Below, piece by piece: positions 40,761-51,194 of a stretch of 64,000 bases of DNA (the first letter of the stretch is position 1; each line of letters opens with the position of its first letter). The DNA comes from Acidovorax sp. SUPP3334 (GTDB lineage: Bacteria > Pseudomonadota > Gammaproteobacteria > Burkholderiales > Burkholderiaceae_C), in NCBI RefSeq assembly GCF_030159055.1, contig NZ_BQXQ01000015.1, positions 1 through 64,000 on the forward strand. Direction: 5' to 3'. The notes beneath the pieces are model-generated. The model searched no databases and was not told the DNA's origin. It saw nothing but the letters and a program-made list of their open reading frames with translations. The translations under genes and the position numbers were made by a program.

Positions 40761-40817
40761 TTGCTATTCAATCGATAGCACATCCCCCTAGTATCGATTG
40801 CGCTGGAGCCCTTTTTT
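40761..40817 (+). repeat. Two-hairpin dispersed intergenic repeat, copy E
   Basis: TTGCTATTCAATCGATAGCA, then CCCCCTAGTATCGATTGCGC and TGGAGCCCTTTTTT. The hairpin followed by six Ts is the most terminator-like copy. It ends 14 bp before the start of the succinate-semialdehyde dehydrogenase gene. Confidence 0.85.
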
Positions 40818-40830
40818 ACCCACACCCGCC

Positions 40831-42306
40831 ATGTCCCTCACCCTCACGCTCACCCGCCCCGACCTGATCCGCAGCGCCAACTTCATCGCGGGGCACTGGC
40901 ACCCCGGCCCTGGCGCACTGCTGCCCGTGACCGACCCGGCCACCGGCGCCGTCATCGCCGAAGTGCCCGACTCCGGCGCCCCGCAAGCCCTGGCCGCGCT
41001 GGAGGCCGCCCACGCCGCTTTTCCTGCCTGGCGCCAGGTGCCGGCCAAGCAGCGCGCCGCCATCATCAAGCGCTGGAACGATCTGGTGCTGGCCCATCAG
41101 GACGACCTGGGCGCCTTGATCTCGCTGGAGCAGGGCAAGCCCCTGGCCGAAGGCAAGGGCGAGGTCGCCTATGCCGCCAGCTACATCGAATGGTTCGGCG
41201 AACAGGCCACGCGCATGAACGGCGAGGTCATTCCCGCCCCCGTGCCCGGCCGGCGCATGTTCGCCTTGAAGGAGCCCGTGGGCGTGGTGGCCGCCATCAC
41301 GCCCTGGAACTTCCCCGCCGCGATGATCGCCCGCAAGATCGCCCCGGCCCTGGCCGCAGGCTGCACCGTGGTCTGCAAGCCCGCCGAGGACACCCCCCTC
41401 ACGTCGCTCGCCCTGGTGCTGCTGGCCCACGAGGCGGGCGTGCCGCCGGGCGTGCTGAACATCGTCACCGCCTCGCGCGAGAAGACGCCCGAGGTGGTGG
41501 ACGTGTGGCTCGATGACCCGCGCGTGCGCAAGATCACCTTCACCGGCTCCACGCCCGTGGGCAAGCACCTGGCGCGCCGCAGCGCCGATACCTTGAAAAA
41601 ACTCTCGCTGGAGCTGGGCGGCAACGCCCCCTTCATCGTGTTCGAGGACGCCGACGTGGATGCGGCCGTGGAAGGCTTCATGGCCGCCAAGTTCAGAAAC
41701 GGCGGCCAGACCTGCGTGTGCCCCAACCGGGTGTTCGTGCACAACAAGGTGCATGCGGAGTTCGCGCAAAAGCTCACCGCCCGCGTGGCGGCCTTGAAGG
41801 TGGGGCCGGCGAGCGACCCCGCCTCGCAGATCGGGCCGATGATCAACGCCCGGGCGGTGGAGAAGATCGAGCGGCACGTGCAGGACGCCGTGGCCAAGGG
41901 CGCGAAGGTGCTCACGGGAGGAAAGCGCCTCACGGACCTGGGCGCCACCTACTACGCCCCCACGGTGCTGGAGAACGCGGACGCAACCATGGCCTGCGCG
42001 TGCGAGGAGACCTTCGGCCCGGTGGCGCCGCTCACGCGCTTCGAGAACGAGCAGGAGGTGATCGCCGCCGCCAACGACACGCCGTTCGGCCTGGCGGCGT
42101 ACTTCTACAGCCAGGACGTGCGCCGCATCTGGCGCGTGGCGGACGCGCTGGAGAGCGGGATCGTGGGCATCAACGAAGGGGCGCTGGCGGCGGAGGCTGC
42201 GCCGTTCGGGGGTGTGAAGGAATCGGGCTACGGGCGCGAGGGATCGACGCACGGGCTGGAGGATTACCTGCACACCAAGTACGTGTGCCAGGGCGGTTTG
42301 GGTTGA
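40831..42306 (+). CDS. gabD: NAD(P)-dependent succinate-semialdehyde dehydrogenase
   Basis: 491 aa. ALDH superfamily, GabD branch: ISLEQGKPLAEGKGEVAYAA, YIEWFGEQATRMNGEVIP, AAITPWNFPAAMIARKIAPA, catalytic glutamate in LELGGNAPFIVF and catalytic cysteine in NGGQTCVCPNRVFV. It converts succinate semialdehyde to succinate, the last step of GABA and putrescine breakdown, which ties the locus to a polyamine- or GABA-like pathway. Start 40831. Separated from the operon upstream by repeat copies D and E. Confidence 0.92.
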   Translation: MSLTLTLTRPDLIRSANFIAGHWHPGPGALLPVTDPATGAVIAEVPDSGAPQALAALEAAHAAFPAWRQVPAKQRAAIIKRWNDLVLAHQDDLGALISLEQGKPLAEGKGEVAYAASYIEWFGEQATRMNGEVIPAPVPGRRMFALKEPVGVVAAITPWNFPAAMIARKIAPALAAGCTVVCKPAEDTPLTSLALVLLAHEAGVPPGVLNIVTASREKTPEVVDVWLDDPRVRKITFTGSTPVGKHLARRSADTLKKLSLELGGNAPFIVFEDADVDAAVEGFMAAKFRNGGQTCVCPNRVFVHNKVHAEFAQKLTARVAALKVGPASDPASQIGPMINARAVEKIERHVQDAVAKGAKVLTGGKRLTDLGATYYAPTVLENADATMACACEETFGPVAPLTRFENEQEVIAAANDTPFGLAAYFYSQDVRRIWRVADALESGIVGINEGALAAEAAPFGGVKESGYGREGSTHGLEDYLHTKYVCQGGLG

Positions 42307-42829
42307 GGGGGAGGGGCTGAAAGTGATGAATGGCCCACATACGTGAGGCCATGTTCATTCAAGCTTTGCAATTGAATATTCGACGCGTGTTACGTCTCCT
42401 AAGCAGCGATTGCCGACTTTAGTATTCAGAACCCAAAGTTCAGCTTCGGGACTCCAAGCGGTATTTGCGAAGCAACAACGGCTCGCACGCTAGCTGATGA
42501 TGCTTGCTTGGCTATGTCCATCCCGGTGGTGACTGAGTACGGTCCCTACAAGCGAAGACTTGGCGGCAGGCGCTACGGATGGCTCGTCGGTACGAACTCA
42601 TCGAGCTTCCCGGTGCTAAACGATGCCTTGTTGTAGTTGTCAGCTCCGCGTGTCTTCCCTCCTTCAACCTCGTGCGTCGTCAATCATCCTTCTCACCTAT
42701 CTGGCGGAGGCTCACCAATCTTTAACAACCTAGTCGCCGTCAGGGATCAGCAGATGGATGCCAGCGATAGCGCGAGCGGAGGAGGCGCTACATTATGCAA
42801 ATAGCATTTTGAATTAAAGAAATCGACGG
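42307..42829. other. 523-bp non-coding left flank of the kinase island
   Basis: No open frame with coding character, no tRNA and no recognisable inverted repeat. GC content drops visibly here relative to gabD. The last 60 bp before the phosphatase gene contain AT-rich sequence (TACATTATGCAAATAGC) that may hold its promoter. It probably includes the boundary of the foreign segment. Confidence 0.5.
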
Positions 42830-43990
42830 ATGAATTTCAGCCCCACCACACCTGCGGCAATGCTTGCGGCATGGTTCATGAGGCACACCTCGCCGAACGG
42901 GGTGCGCCGGGTCGCGCAACTCAACGGAGCTGTTGCGACAGACGTCGGCTCCGTGCGCGAGGATAACCAGGATCGAGTGGCGCTTGTCCGCGGTCGTGAC
43001 CGCTCAGGGGGTTGCTTCATAGTCGCTGCCCTCGCCGACGGCATTGGAGGCATGAAACAAGGCGCCGAATGTGCGGCATTGACGCTCGGAACATTTATCG
43101 ACTCGGTTGTAGCCGACGCTCAGCTTTCTACAGAGCCCGGCGACTGGCTCGCCAGCGGCGCGCATCGCGCGAATCGAGCTGTTCACGCCAAGCTTGCCGG
43201 CGAAGGTGGTTCGACTCTAGTAGCCGCGTTATTGATGAATGGTCGCCCGCCGCACTGGCTGAGCATCGGTGACAGCAGAGCCTACCAAGCCTACAATGGG
43301 AAGCTACATCAGCTTTCCCTCGACGACACTATTGATGGTCAGCTTGGGAAGTCCGGCGGTGGTCGTCGTCGCGACCTTTTGCAGTTCGTCGGTATCGGCG
43401 ACGTGCTCGAACCGCACATTGAGCCAATCGTCAGCGCTAGTGGGTCGATGCTGCTTACGTCCGACGGAGTGCACTTCATTGAGGCCGACTACTTAGCTAA
43501 GGTGGTTTATTACGCGCCTGACCTTGGTTTTTGCGTTCGCCGCTTGACGGAACTGGCAAAGATGTTGGGTGGACCTGACAACGCGACGGTTGCCGCGCTG
43601 AGTCTCGACGCCCTCGCAGTCAACGCAGAGACGCATCTCCATGGCGTCTATGAAGTGTGGGATCCGTTCGGAGAACTCCAAATCATGTTCGATTGTGGGC
43701 CGCGTCAATACGTTGCGACATCCCCGCAGCAAGCGTCTGCGGCTGACACTCCTAAACACGTCTACGCCGCCCCGTTGCCACCAGTGGTAAGCCCCGGGAA
43801 TGAAACTAAGCCGGCGAACTCACGCCAAGAAGAACCCACCGACGAAGGAAGCGCGACGAAAAATATGGCTCACCAGAAGAAGCCGAGAAGCTCAAGGAAG
43901 AAACCCAAACAGAGTCCTGCCGACCCTGGGGAGCACAGAGACGCGGATGAACCGCAACTGTTCATCGAATTTCCCAACAAGAAGCCCTAG
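42830..43990 (+). CDS. PP2C-family Ser/Thr protein phosphatase of a kinase/phosphatase island
   Basis: 386 aa. The PP2C domain (about 30-260) keeps its metal-site motifs: DVGSVREDNQDRVAL (39-52), AALADGIGGMKQG (Asp70), GSTLVAALL (127-135), LSIGDSRAYQAY (144-155), LLTSDGVHF (209-215) and GGPDNATVAAL (247-257). A hydrophilic, lysine/proline-rich tail of about 120 residues follows (QKKPRSSRKKPKQSPADP). It should dephosphorylate the two kinases encoded directly downstream or their targets. Two base pairs separate it from the first kinase. Lower GC and more varied codon use than its neighbours suggest transfer. Later in-frame starts at 42860 and 42878 cannot be excluded. Confidence 0.88.
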   Translation: MNFSPTTPAAMLAAWFMRHTSPNGVRRVAQLNGAVATDVGSVREDNQDRVALVRGRDRSGGCFIVAALADGIGGMKQGAECAALTLGTFIDSVVADAQLSTEPGDWLASGAHRANRAVHAKLAGEGGSTLVAALLMNGRPPHWLSIGDSRAYQAYNGKLHQLSLDDTIDGQLGKSGGGRRRDLLQFVGIGDVLEPHIEPIVSASGSMLLTSDGVHFIEADYLAKVVYYAPDLGFCVRRLTELAKMLGGPDNATVAALSLDALAVNAETHLHGVYEVWDPFGELQIMFDCGPRQYVATSPQQASAADTPKHVYAAPLPPVVSPGNETKPANSRQEEPTDEGSATKNMAHQKKPRSSRKKPKQSPADPGEHRDADEPQLFIEFPNKKP

Positions 43991-43992
43991 CA

Positions 43993-45054
43993 ATGAGCGC
44001 TTTGCCTCCTCGCTACGTCCCCTCCGGCCATCACATGACGGGAGGAATGGGAAGTGTCATCGTCTGCACGGACTCGATTCTCGAGCGTTTCGTCGCAATC
44101 AAGTTCATCAGTAGCGCCGCTCACAGACACAGGATGGATGACGAGGTCGCGGCGCTGTTGAAGCTACGCTCGAAGCACGTCGTGCAAGTTTACGATGTGA
44201 TCCGCTCTTCAACGGATGAAATCGGTATCGTCCAGGAGTTCATCGACGGGAACGATCTCTTTGAGTCCTACGCGCCACCCGTCTCGCTGGCAGACTACTA
44301 CAAGCAGCTTTGGCAGATTGCCTCGGGGCTTTCCGATATCCACGAGCTCGGCGTTATTCATCGAGATATCAAGCCGAATAACATGAAGACGGATCCCGAG
44401 CAGGTGATCAAAATCTTCGATTTTGGGTTGGCTCGCGACGACGGACCGAGCGCTGTGACGCGAGGATTTGTCGGAACGCGGGGTTTCGCTGCACCTGAGC
44501 TTTATGAGCGACCTTTTGCCTTCACCAACGCAGTCGACACTTACGCCTTCGGCGCCACGGCAGTGTTTCTTGCCACTGGCAACCTACCCCCCGAACTGAT
44601 GGAACAGCCGCCAAGAGTTAATCCAGCGGGATACTTCCATCATTTGACGCTAGGTATAGCGCCGGAGATTTCGGCGCTTCTAAATGCCTGTATGCATCAG
44701 GATGCTGCGCTACGCCCTGCGATGAGGGCAATCCGCGACGCGTTGGCACGCCACATCCTTTTCGACAAACACCGCGCACTGCTTGTCCACAATTCGCGCG
44801 CGTCTGTACTCAACGCTGCTAACCGATCTGTGAAGCTTGCCTTCGGAACAATCGGTTCAATTGAGATTCAATACGATGGGCTCTCATTTATAGCCGCTAA
44901 TGTGTTGAACGAGGTGCAGATCAACAACCAGCCCGTGATTGCTGGGTCGGTTCTACCTGGTGCATGTGTGATAGCGCTTGGCGCAGCACACCGCCGATCC
45001 AACGAGCGTCGCTTCATTACCTTCGACATCTCGCACCCGGAGATCGTTTTATGA
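43993..45054 (+). CDS. Ser/Thr protein kinase with FHA-like C-terminal domain
   Basis: 353 aa, no membrane segment. Kinase domain about 7-255: glycine loop TGGMGSVIV, Lys37 (VAIKF), catalytic loop VIHRDIKPNN (Asp125, Asn130), IFDFGLARDD (Asp143), GTRGFAAPELYE, and a conserved arginine in ALRPAMRAI. All catalytic residues are present. Residues 278-353 form a small beta-rich domain (NEVQINNQPVIAGSVLPGAC, FITFDISHPEIVL) resembling the second half of an FHA domain, without the usual Arg/Ser/His phosphothreonine site being obvious. Translation is coupled to the second kinase by an ATGA overlap. Confidence 0.88.
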   Translation: MSALPPRYVPSGHHMTGGMGSVIVCTDSILERFVAIKFISSAAHRHRMDDEVAALLKLRSKHVVQVYDVIRSSTDEIGIVQEFIDGNDLFESYAPPVSLADYYKQLWQIASGLSDIHELGVIHRDIKPNNMKTDPEQVIKIFDFGLARDDGPSAVTRGFVGTRGFAAPELYERPFAFTNAVDTYAFGATAVFLATGNLPPELMEQPPRVNPAGYFHHLTLGIAPEISALLNACMHQDAALRPAMRAIRDALARHILFDKHRALLVHNSRASVLNAANRSVKLAFGTIGSIEIQYDGLSFIAANVLNEVQINNQPVIAGSVLPGACVIALGAAHRRSNERRFITFDISHPEIVL

Positions 45055-46130
45055 CTGGACCACTGAGTGCAGGCGATGTGATCGGCGACCGCTATGAGAT
45101 CAAGCAATACATCGACGAAGGTGGCATGCAGTTTGTCTACGCAGCAATAGACAAGCTCGCCAATCGGGTGGTCGCGCTGAAAACACCGAAGAACAACTCC
45201 GCTACCAAACGGTTTCGGCGCAGCGCCGTGCTGGCCGCTAAGGTCAACCATCCCAATGTCGCCAAGACTCTGGACTACGTTCGAGAAGGCGACAAGCGCT
45301 ATTTGATTGAGGAACTTATCGTCGGTGCCGACTTGAGCAAGGCTCTGTTAAAGAAGACTTCTTTTCTTGACCCCTCCCTTGTCGCGAAGGTCTTCCACTA
45401 TATGGCTAAGGGGCTTGCAGCCGCCCACCATGCTGGTGTGATCCATCGCGACTTGAAGCCGACGAATGTAATGATGGTTGGCGGATACTCGATCTCCGAG
45501 TTGAAGATTACTGACTTTGGGATTGCGAAGATGGCTGAGGATGAGCTCGTCGAAGCGGCCGAGGGAGGTGAACAGACTCTCTCGACTTCGCAGACGGCCG
45601 TCGGAGCACTGCCTTACATGGCTCCAGAAGCCATTGACACCCCAAAATTGGTAACACGGGCTGCCGACATATGGTCGCTTGGGGCAATGATTTTCCACCT
45701 GCTCACCGGGCAGCAGCCATTTGGAACTGGTCTTCGAGCTGTGCACAAGATCATGGAGGCAAAGAGGCCGGAACCCCCGCCTTTCGTGCTACGCAATCCG
45801 CAGTTCTCGCCTTTGGCTGGCGAGTTACTCGAAATGGCGTATGCCTGCATGCAGAAGGACCCGGTAGCGCGCCCGACCGCAGATGATCTGGTAGCCCACT
45901 GCGGGGCGCTTTGCTACACAGTCACTCAGCGTGCCGAAGGTGTCGTGAGCCGGGTTGAGTACGACGCTTGGGGCTTCATCACTTCCGAGGGCAGGCATGT
46001 GTTCTTCCACATGGATAGCGTCTTTGGCCCGCCGCCCAAGCTGGCGGTCGGCGATCAAGTGTTGTTCTCAGCGTATGCCGGTGGTGGTGCACCTCGCGCC
46101 TACCCTGTGTTGAGGATTGCAGCGCAGTAG
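45051..46130 (+). CDS. Ser/Thr protein kinase with C-terminal cold-shock-like domain
   Basis: 359 aa, cytoplasmic. Kinase domain about 15-285: glycine loop DEGGMQFVYAA, Lys44 (VVALKTPK), VIHRDLKPTNV (Asp134), ITDFGIAKM (Asp155), ALPYMAPEAID and DPVARPTADDLV. Residues 295-357 read as a cold-shock/OB-fold domain: EGVVSRVEYDAWGFITSEG corresponds to RNP1, HVFFHMDSV to RNP2, and LAVGDQVLFSAY plus PRAYPVLRI to the closing strands. A kinase fused to a nucleic-acid-binding CSD suggests that activity is switched by, or targeted to, RNA or single-stranded DNA; that is an inference. It shares ATGA with the upstream kinase. Confidence 0.88.
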   Translation: MTGPLSAGDVIGDRYEIKQYIDEGGMQFVYAAIDKLANRVVALKTPKNNSATKRFRRSAVLAAKVNHPNVAKTLDYVREGDKRYLIEELIVGADLSKALLKKTSFLDPSLVAKVFHYMAKGLAAAHHAGVIHRDLKPTNVMMVGGYSISELKITDFGIAKMAEDELVEAAEGGEQTLSTSQTAVGALPYMAPEAIDTPKLVTRAADIWSLGAMIFHLLTGQQPFGTGLRAVHKIMEAKRPEPPPFVLRNPQFSPLAGELLEMAYACMQKDPVARPTADDLVAHCGALCYTVTQRAEGVVSRVEYDAWGFITSEGRHVFFHMDSVFGPPPKLAVGDQVLFSAYAGGGAPRAYPVLRIAAQ

Positions 46131-46307
46131 CTAGGTCAGTGATCGACTACGATCCCCTATCGCCATATGGACCCAGCACGAAGCTCCTCGTTCCTCGTAA
46201 AAGTCATTGACTGTTCTTGGCATGAGCGGTCATTCGAGGATCAAAGTCGATCGTCAAAGATCAGCCTTTTACTGCCGTAGTTGGTGGTCAGCCGCACGAC
46301 CTCTTAA

Positions 46308-51185: not shown

Positions 51186-51194
51186 TCAGCCCGC

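Follow-up and report, generated by a model that had tools for sequence, protein, structure and literature searches.

Three adjoining genes in a stretch of 64,000 nucleotides from Acidovorax sp. SUPP3334 (assembly GCF_030159055.1, contig NZ_BQXQ01000015.1, positions 1 to 64,000 of the forward strand; hereafter the window) encode a PP2C-type phosphatase and two Ser/Thr kinases. Judged from its sequence, this block is a KKP module, a kind of system that has already been described, and we consider it very probable that it is a chromosomal KKP module used for anti-phage defence. No prophage is visible in the window, no close homologue of the phosphatase was found in 16 congeners, and in two of these other defence-type genes occupy the same neighbourhood; taken together, these findings make anti-phage defence the best reading.

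Architecture of the block

KKP (PfpC-PfkB-PfkA) was reported by Guo et al. (2024, PMC11341870) as a toxin-antitoxin system of three parts that also acts against phages. Its parts are the phosphatase PfpC, the kinase PfkB, with an 'FHA' domain, and the kinase PfkA, whose cold-shock domain contains a GFI/A motif, and the methods of that paper define it as PP2C, kinase, and kinase genes on one strand, each of 900-1300 bp (PMC11341870). The three genes of the window have this order and strand, and their lengths fall in this range (Table 1). Sequence and alignments place the motifs GGM, HRD, and DFG in both kinases, which also carry the Lys and APE motifs. PfkA combines a CSD match below the cut-off with the GFI motif and a C-terminal domain of five strands, and PfpC keeps the metal-binding Asp residues from which catalysis is predicted. 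The preliminary description of this DNA had presented the block as an undescribed switch, a claim that has to be given up in view of the published module (PMC11341870).

The gene structure given in that description, i.e. a phosphatase and two kinase genes with a 2-bp spacing (pfpC/pfkB) and an ATGA overlap (pfkB/pfkA), agrees with the coordinates and with Pfam and NCBIfam. For pfkA, the mechanical list of open reading frames (ORFs) gives a start at 44964, while the start used here agrees with the relatives in alignment. The lower guanine-plus-cytosine (GC) content and the different codon use were also borne out: GC was 0.560 in the low-GC insert versus 0.672 in the whole window, and GC at third codon positions was 0.63-0.65 in pfpC, pfkB, and pfkA versus 0.81-0.93 in four flanking genes. 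Among the flanking genes read were those for a dehydrogenase and an AraC regulator. Across the three proteins, the maximal mean hydropathy over 19 residues was 1.87, which argues against a membrane helix, short of a full prediction, and fits the kinases having been called membrane-free. That they are both catalytically complete holds for PfkB and not for PfkA, in which Ser58 stands in place of the alpha-C glutamate. The insert contained neither direct repeats nor Rfam matches, and no tRNA was found across the window. The approximately 500 bp of low-GC DNA 5' of pfpC (42320-42829) hold no evident gene.

Table 1. Coordinates of the block and of the features discussed in the text (window positions)
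Feature	Position	Strand	Description
pfpC	42830..43990	+	386 amino acids, 1161 bp; PP2C-type phosphatase
pfkB	43993..45054	+	353 amino acids, 1062 bp; Ser/Thr kinase, C-terminal beta domain
pfkA	45051..46130	+	359 amino acids, 1080 bp; Ser/Thr kinase, C-terminal cold-shock (OB-type) domain
QLFIEF tail motif	43955..43972	+	near the PfpC C-terminus; conserved QLxhxh after a basic linker
PfkB C-terminal beta domain	44770-45051 (residues about 260-353)	+	predicted structure
Ser58 codon of pfkA	45222..45224	+	replaces the alpha-C glutamate of active kinases
GFI motif of PfkA	45972..45980 (residues 308-310)	+	cold-shock domain; sequence, alignment
Low-GC insert	42320..46261	.	between the aldehyde dehydrogenase gene end and the monooxygenase/AraC neighbourhood; comparison with congener G006, GC

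The three proteins

The proteins were aligned over their full length with those of six records of the same triplet, from an E. coli P2-type prophage, a Klebsiella phage, and rhizobial, Rhizobium, Xanthobacter, and Pantoea plasmids. Identity to these relatives was highest for PfkA (40-55%), followed by PfkB (35-44%) and PfpC (22-32%). In the Xanthobacter plasmid (L021:6237-10754), a gene for an IS5-family transposase separates pfpC from pfkB, and the annotated PfkB is devoid of the N-terminal GGM loop.

PfpC matched the NCBIfam model of the Stp1 PP2C phosphatase (7e-25, 88 bits, with an equivalog cut-off of 230). Its residues D48, D70, D148, D212, and D250 are conserved in 84-86 of 86 PfpC sequences, the remainder being gaps. 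PfpC proteins of the family end in a tail in which Lys and Arg make up a fraction of 0.17, versus 0.10 over the first 260 residues. Of 83 PfpC (three fragments out of 86 were left out), 46 showed the pattern QL.[IVLM].[FILV] within their final 70 residues, whereas shuffled tails gave a mean of 0.2 and a maximum of 3; since the PfpC proteins are related, these cases are not independent.

PfkB matched Pfam Pkinase (3.3e-35) and keeps the alpha-C glutamate as Glu51, a position occupied in 90 sequences by Glu (79), Gln (2), or a gap (9). Its structure was predicted with a predicted local distance difference test (pLDDT) score of 94.1, with C-terminal strands between residues 262 and 346, and this C-terminal domain aligns with the corresponding part of PfkB from the Klebsiella phage and from E. 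coli. Because the domain is confidently predicted as beta, an FHA-like fold is possible on the strength of the model. Searching Pfam with the isolated domain of 58 PfkB gave no FHA among the best 25 of 31 families, and a profile search of solved structures gave no FHA and four matches at chance level. The phosphothreonine-binding motifs of FHA domains had no conserved counterpart that we could see in the PfkB alignment. Fold searches against a viral library were uninformative on the C-terminal domains, the matches listed being taken up by kinase domains. The structure alignments comprised 61 of 89 PfkB and 72 of 93 PfkA relatives, picked by length and with near-copies left out.

PfkA matched Pfam Pkinase as well (2.3e-45), and its model (pLDDT 92.1) ends in five strands between residues 295 and 356. 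The HMMER alignment pairs its 'RFRRSA' with the 'RFRAEA' of PknA, which sets Ser58 opposite Glu, and in the model Ser58 lies within the helix 49-62. The serine is a feature of the family: across 94 PfkA the alpha-C position held Ser 85 times and Gly 7 times, with a gap in the other 2. When all loci were aligned to one profile, the 109 PfkA-like rows, among which the window is counted several times through overlapping loci, gave Ser 98, Gly 9, and gap 2, while the 133 rows of other kinases, including PfkB, gave Glu 111, gap 16, Ser 4 (one of them a PfkA fragment), Asp 1, and Val 1. In the cold-shock domain, which Pfam CSD recognised at E 0.01 in 21 of 73 PfkA, G308 was found in 88, F309 in 75, and I310 in 68 of the 94 sequences, with Ala in 10 at the last position. 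This GFI/A motif was reported to be required for both toxicity and defence (PMC11341870). By a word search, the main text of the same paper mentions neither the alpha-C serine of PfkA nor the PfpC tail (PMC11341870); these two family-wide features are probably, not certainly, unreported so far.

Relatives and distribution

We searched for homologous three-gene blocks with a PfkA profile in species-representative genomes. From 105 confirmed candidates the best 80 were kept, corresponding to 79 loci, and the full triplet was present in 70 of them, several of which contain shortened ORFs (e.g. L098, L104, L108, L112, L116, L138, and L144). The nine loci that the script scored as short of a full triplet include L079, which has a PfpC that failed the overlap rule, six loci near contig starts or on short contigs (L095, L097, L118, L123, L139, and L145), and two, L076 and L128, for which this is not the case. 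All three genes were found in 14 of 35 loci on viral contigs, the remaining 21 being other kinases. In the Planktothrix phage PaV-LD (L026:5965-7919), just one kinase gene, a short one, comes after the gene for a PfpC-family phosphatase, suggesting that a two-gene form may exist.

In E. coli, a near search found the kinase pair of one allele in 14 of 5426 genomes, and a distant search for a second allele yielded partial hits in 8 of the 5426 (five with 53% and three with 9% coverage). In the window's own group the module is rare: counting the own genome each time and scoring no more than five candidates in any genome, we found PfkB in 2 of 399 genomes from the family, and PfkA in 3 of 399 from the order and in 1 of 369 from the class. 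The PfkA tree, which comprised 98 proteins, puts the window sequence together with Trinickia and a Variovorax metagenome genome (the latter with 83% identity). The 17 rows of the supported clade (100/98) around this group come for the most part from Burkholderiales and Pseudomonas, with others from Roseovarius, Pseudoxanthomonas, and a Verrucomicrobiales bin; one row came from a viral contig. The Trinickia locus adjoins an integrase and a type I methylase, and that of Variovorax is flanked by sulfatase and hydrolase genes.

None of 16 congeners had a close PfpC. The best match (33% identity, 1e-12) is at the level expected for an ordinary PP2C phosphatase. Together with the rarity in the family, order, and class, this supports horizontal acquisition of the block. 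The preliminary description would have been contradicted by a block conserved at one site in all relatives or always embedded in a type VI secretion locus. The first was not seen among these congeners, and the related loci for which we read the annotation are not type VI secretion loci. The interpretation given there holds in part: a horizontally acquired phosphorylation switch, most likely directed against phages, is supported by the rarity of the block in the wider group and by the presence of other defence-type genes in the same neighbourhood in two sister species.

The chromosomal site in congeners

The dehydrogenase and AraC neighbourhoods adjoin each other in three genomes (the window, G006, and G003), and the site between them holds three different defence-type cargoes. 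In G006, similarity to the window ends at position 42319 on the left and starts again at 46262 on the right; the 3.5 kb that separate the two flanks differ from the window DNA and are likewise low in GC. Three low-GC genes of this insert (L055:4465-7255) match PADLOC models of Hp1 (6e-77), Hp2 (8e-42), and, weakly, Hp3 (4e-4); the proteins had no Pfam match. Hp1-Hp2-Hp3 has been described as a defence system of three genes. G003 also has the end of this dehydrogenase gene, and next to it lies a gene for a protein of 1859 amino acids with DUF4011, helicase, and MTES_1575 regions (L061:667-6246), which matches PADLOC PDC-S37 (E 0) and Hhe (2e-246). After this gene come parts of the right flank, in rearranged form. 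G003 is the weaker case, as its contig starts within the dehydrogenase gene and this gene exists in more than one copy. A hotspot reading thus rests on these three genomes.

The remaining congeners differ. In G016, the genes that follow are ordinary ones and one that, judged by eye, resembles a transposase gene, and the right flank resumes only at window position 51189. In G009, one copy of the dehydrogenase gene is followed by approximately 2 kb of high-GC DNA with a sensor-kinase-like gene (by eye) and then by sequence like the window from 53891 onward, and in G014 sequence like the window from 58988 onward begins 195 bases after the dehydrogenase. Ordinary high-GC genes come next to the copy examined in G007. 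The right flank was not found in G005 and G013, and in eight other congeners matches to the right-flank query were short, weak, or absent. The aldehyde dehydrogenase gene (window 40798-42303) has two close copies in several congeners, and draft contigs therefore break there.

Prophage and defence context

The module of the window is a cassette outside any visible prophage. A PHROG scan of 106 of the 116 window ORFs of at least 190 amino acids gave no integrase, portal, terminase, capsid, or tail family among the best 25 of 31 families; the KKP genes and some overlapping ORFs were left out, and shorter phage genes would escape such a scan. According to the published survey, over 90% of KKP clusters are located in prophages (PMC11341870). 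When we compared the neighbours of the 79 genome loci by blastp with the proteins of 18 viral or phage loci, at least one similar protein was found in 15 of 79 and at least three in 1 of 79. The database being small, 15 of 79 is a lower bound and does not conflict with the published share.

Defence neighbours, which the preliminary description had suggested looking for, do occur near related loci. We scanned two genes on each side of 38 of the 70 triplet loci (137 of 140 proteins, three long ones being left out). Matches included models of GajB, PrrC, type I restriction, BstA, IetA, MzaA, and LmuB (among the best 25 of 248 families) and integrases (among the best 25 of 92 families). Two rhizobial plasmids have an ABC three-component system (ABC-3C) directly after the triplet (L022:7989-15011 and L023:7989-15014), and a Rhizobium plasmid has a gene with a Shedu SduA domain directly 5' of it (L027:4197-9178).

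Proposed mechanism

In KKP relatives, the kinases are toxic solely in combination, PfpC neutralises them as an antitoxin, and modules from five sources protect against phages (PMC11341870). The modules tested in that work include those of MPAO1, Shewanella W3-18-1, E. coli 15EC039, V. tasmaniensis, and S. Typhi CT18. The T4 protein Gp59 binds to PfpC and reduces its activity to a modest extent (PMC11341870), and according to a later paper PfpC is degraded as a result of RepG4 from phage Pf4 (PMC13048266). By analogy with these modules, we infer the expression, activity, trigger, and targets of the window copy. At rest, PfpC would hold both kinases and their targets dephosphorylated. Infection would inhibit or remove PfpC, upon which PfkB and PfkA, working only jointly, would phosphorylate many host proteins; growth would stop, and the phage would be unable to multiply.

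The presence of a PfkA without alpha-C glutamate beside a normal PfkB offers a simple hypothesis for the unexplained requirement for two kinases, and one that can be tested by point changes. PfkA might be a conditional kinase that stays inactive until it is completed by PfkB, either through binding or through phosphorylation of the alpha-C serine, and PfpC, tethered through its QLxhxh tail, might reverse this. If true, neither kinase would work alone and KKP would be an AND gate. We put this idea forward tentatively and hold it to be rather doubtful. The PfkA phosphosites given in the published work (T34, S37, and T271, P. aeruginosa numbering; PMC11341870) include none numbered near Ser58, which weighs against the phospho-serine form of the idea.

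Alternative readings

Several findings weigh against a defence module. The link to experimentally tested KKP modules runs through architecture and through relatives that are themselves untested. Two of the Pfam matches stay below their cut-offs, namely PP2C_2 in PfpC (6.6e-5, 23 bits versus 24) and CSD in PfkA (1.6e-4, 21.9 bits versus 27), and Pfam FHA (PF00498), the domain named in the definition of KKP, was matched at E 0.01 by 0 of 62 PfkB. The tallies of neighbours at the 38 loci have no random control, and a search for a promoter at the block gave nothing above chance. The last result would also suit a remnant of horizontal transfer that is degraded or silent and has no function at present, as would the gene-less low-GC DNA before pfpC. 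Such a remnant appears very improbable to us, since the three frames are open, their short junctions are intact, and the catalytic motifs are retained except for the alpha-C serine, which is family-wide.

KKP might instead mainly control resident prophages or mobile elements by phosphorylating a silencer, with phage defence being secondary. This role was reported for the P. aeruginosa module, in which the silencer is MvaU, and the majority of KKP clusters lie within prophages (PMC11341870). Set against this are the lack of phage structural families in the PHROG scan, which covered the window and not the rest of the genome, and the exchange of defence-type cargo at the site among congeners. We therefore regard prophage control as an unlikely main role for the window copy. 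Least credible of all is a set unrelated to phages that serves housekeeping or stress signalling, in the manner of Stp1/PrkC, or the regulation of secretion. The phosphatase does match the Stp1 model and the kinases a PASTA-kinase model, all far under the equivalog cut-offs, but the block has no PASTA or membrane part, its two kinases carry beta-domain and cold-shock tails, it is absent from the congeners, and no PADLOC TerY-type model was among the best 25 families listed for each kinase.

Anti-phage defence by a chromosomal cassette without visible prophage fits the published proposal that defence may be the sole role of some KKP modules (PMC11341870). KKP itself being known, what deserves attention here is the cargo-swapping site, a place to seek further defence systems in the genus, and the alpha-C serine of PfkA.

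Comparison with known systems

PppA/PpkA/Fha, TerY-P, Stk2, and PglW are probably looser relatives of the block. The TerY-P triad has a TerY-type von Willebrand gene beside its PP2C and kinase genes. Stk2, PD-T4-6, and BREX PglW share the kinase domain, and PADLOC models of PD-T4-6 and PglW match the window kinases through this domain; the operons of Stk2 and PD-T4-6 are not known to contain a phosphatase and a second kinase. Mad6 of MADS, likewise similar in its kinase domain, was the best PADLOC match for both kinases (6e-42 and 6e-58) but differs in length and partners, and no MADS partner genes were seen beside the block; with 101 and 127 bits versus an NCBIfam MAD6 equivalog cut-off of 460, we rejected this assignment. 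The pair of an Stp1/PrkC-type phosphatase and a PASTA kinase resembles the block in that a PP2C phosphatase adjoins a Ser/Thr kinase, whereas the block has a second kinase and a cold-shock domain and is devoid of PASTA repeats and of a membrane helix. This pair was rejected as well (phosphatase 88 versus 230 bits, kinases 101 and 181 versus 450 bits, NCBIfam equivalog cut-offs).

KKP has been set apart from Stk2 in the published work (PMC11341870). The window copy differs from most published modules in its location outside a visible prophage, and the FHA domain published for PfkB (PMC11341870) is unconfirmed by Pfam in the window and in the relatives. It resembles them in gene order, gene lengths, kinase motifs, the GFI cold-shock domain, and a sporadic and mobile distribution.

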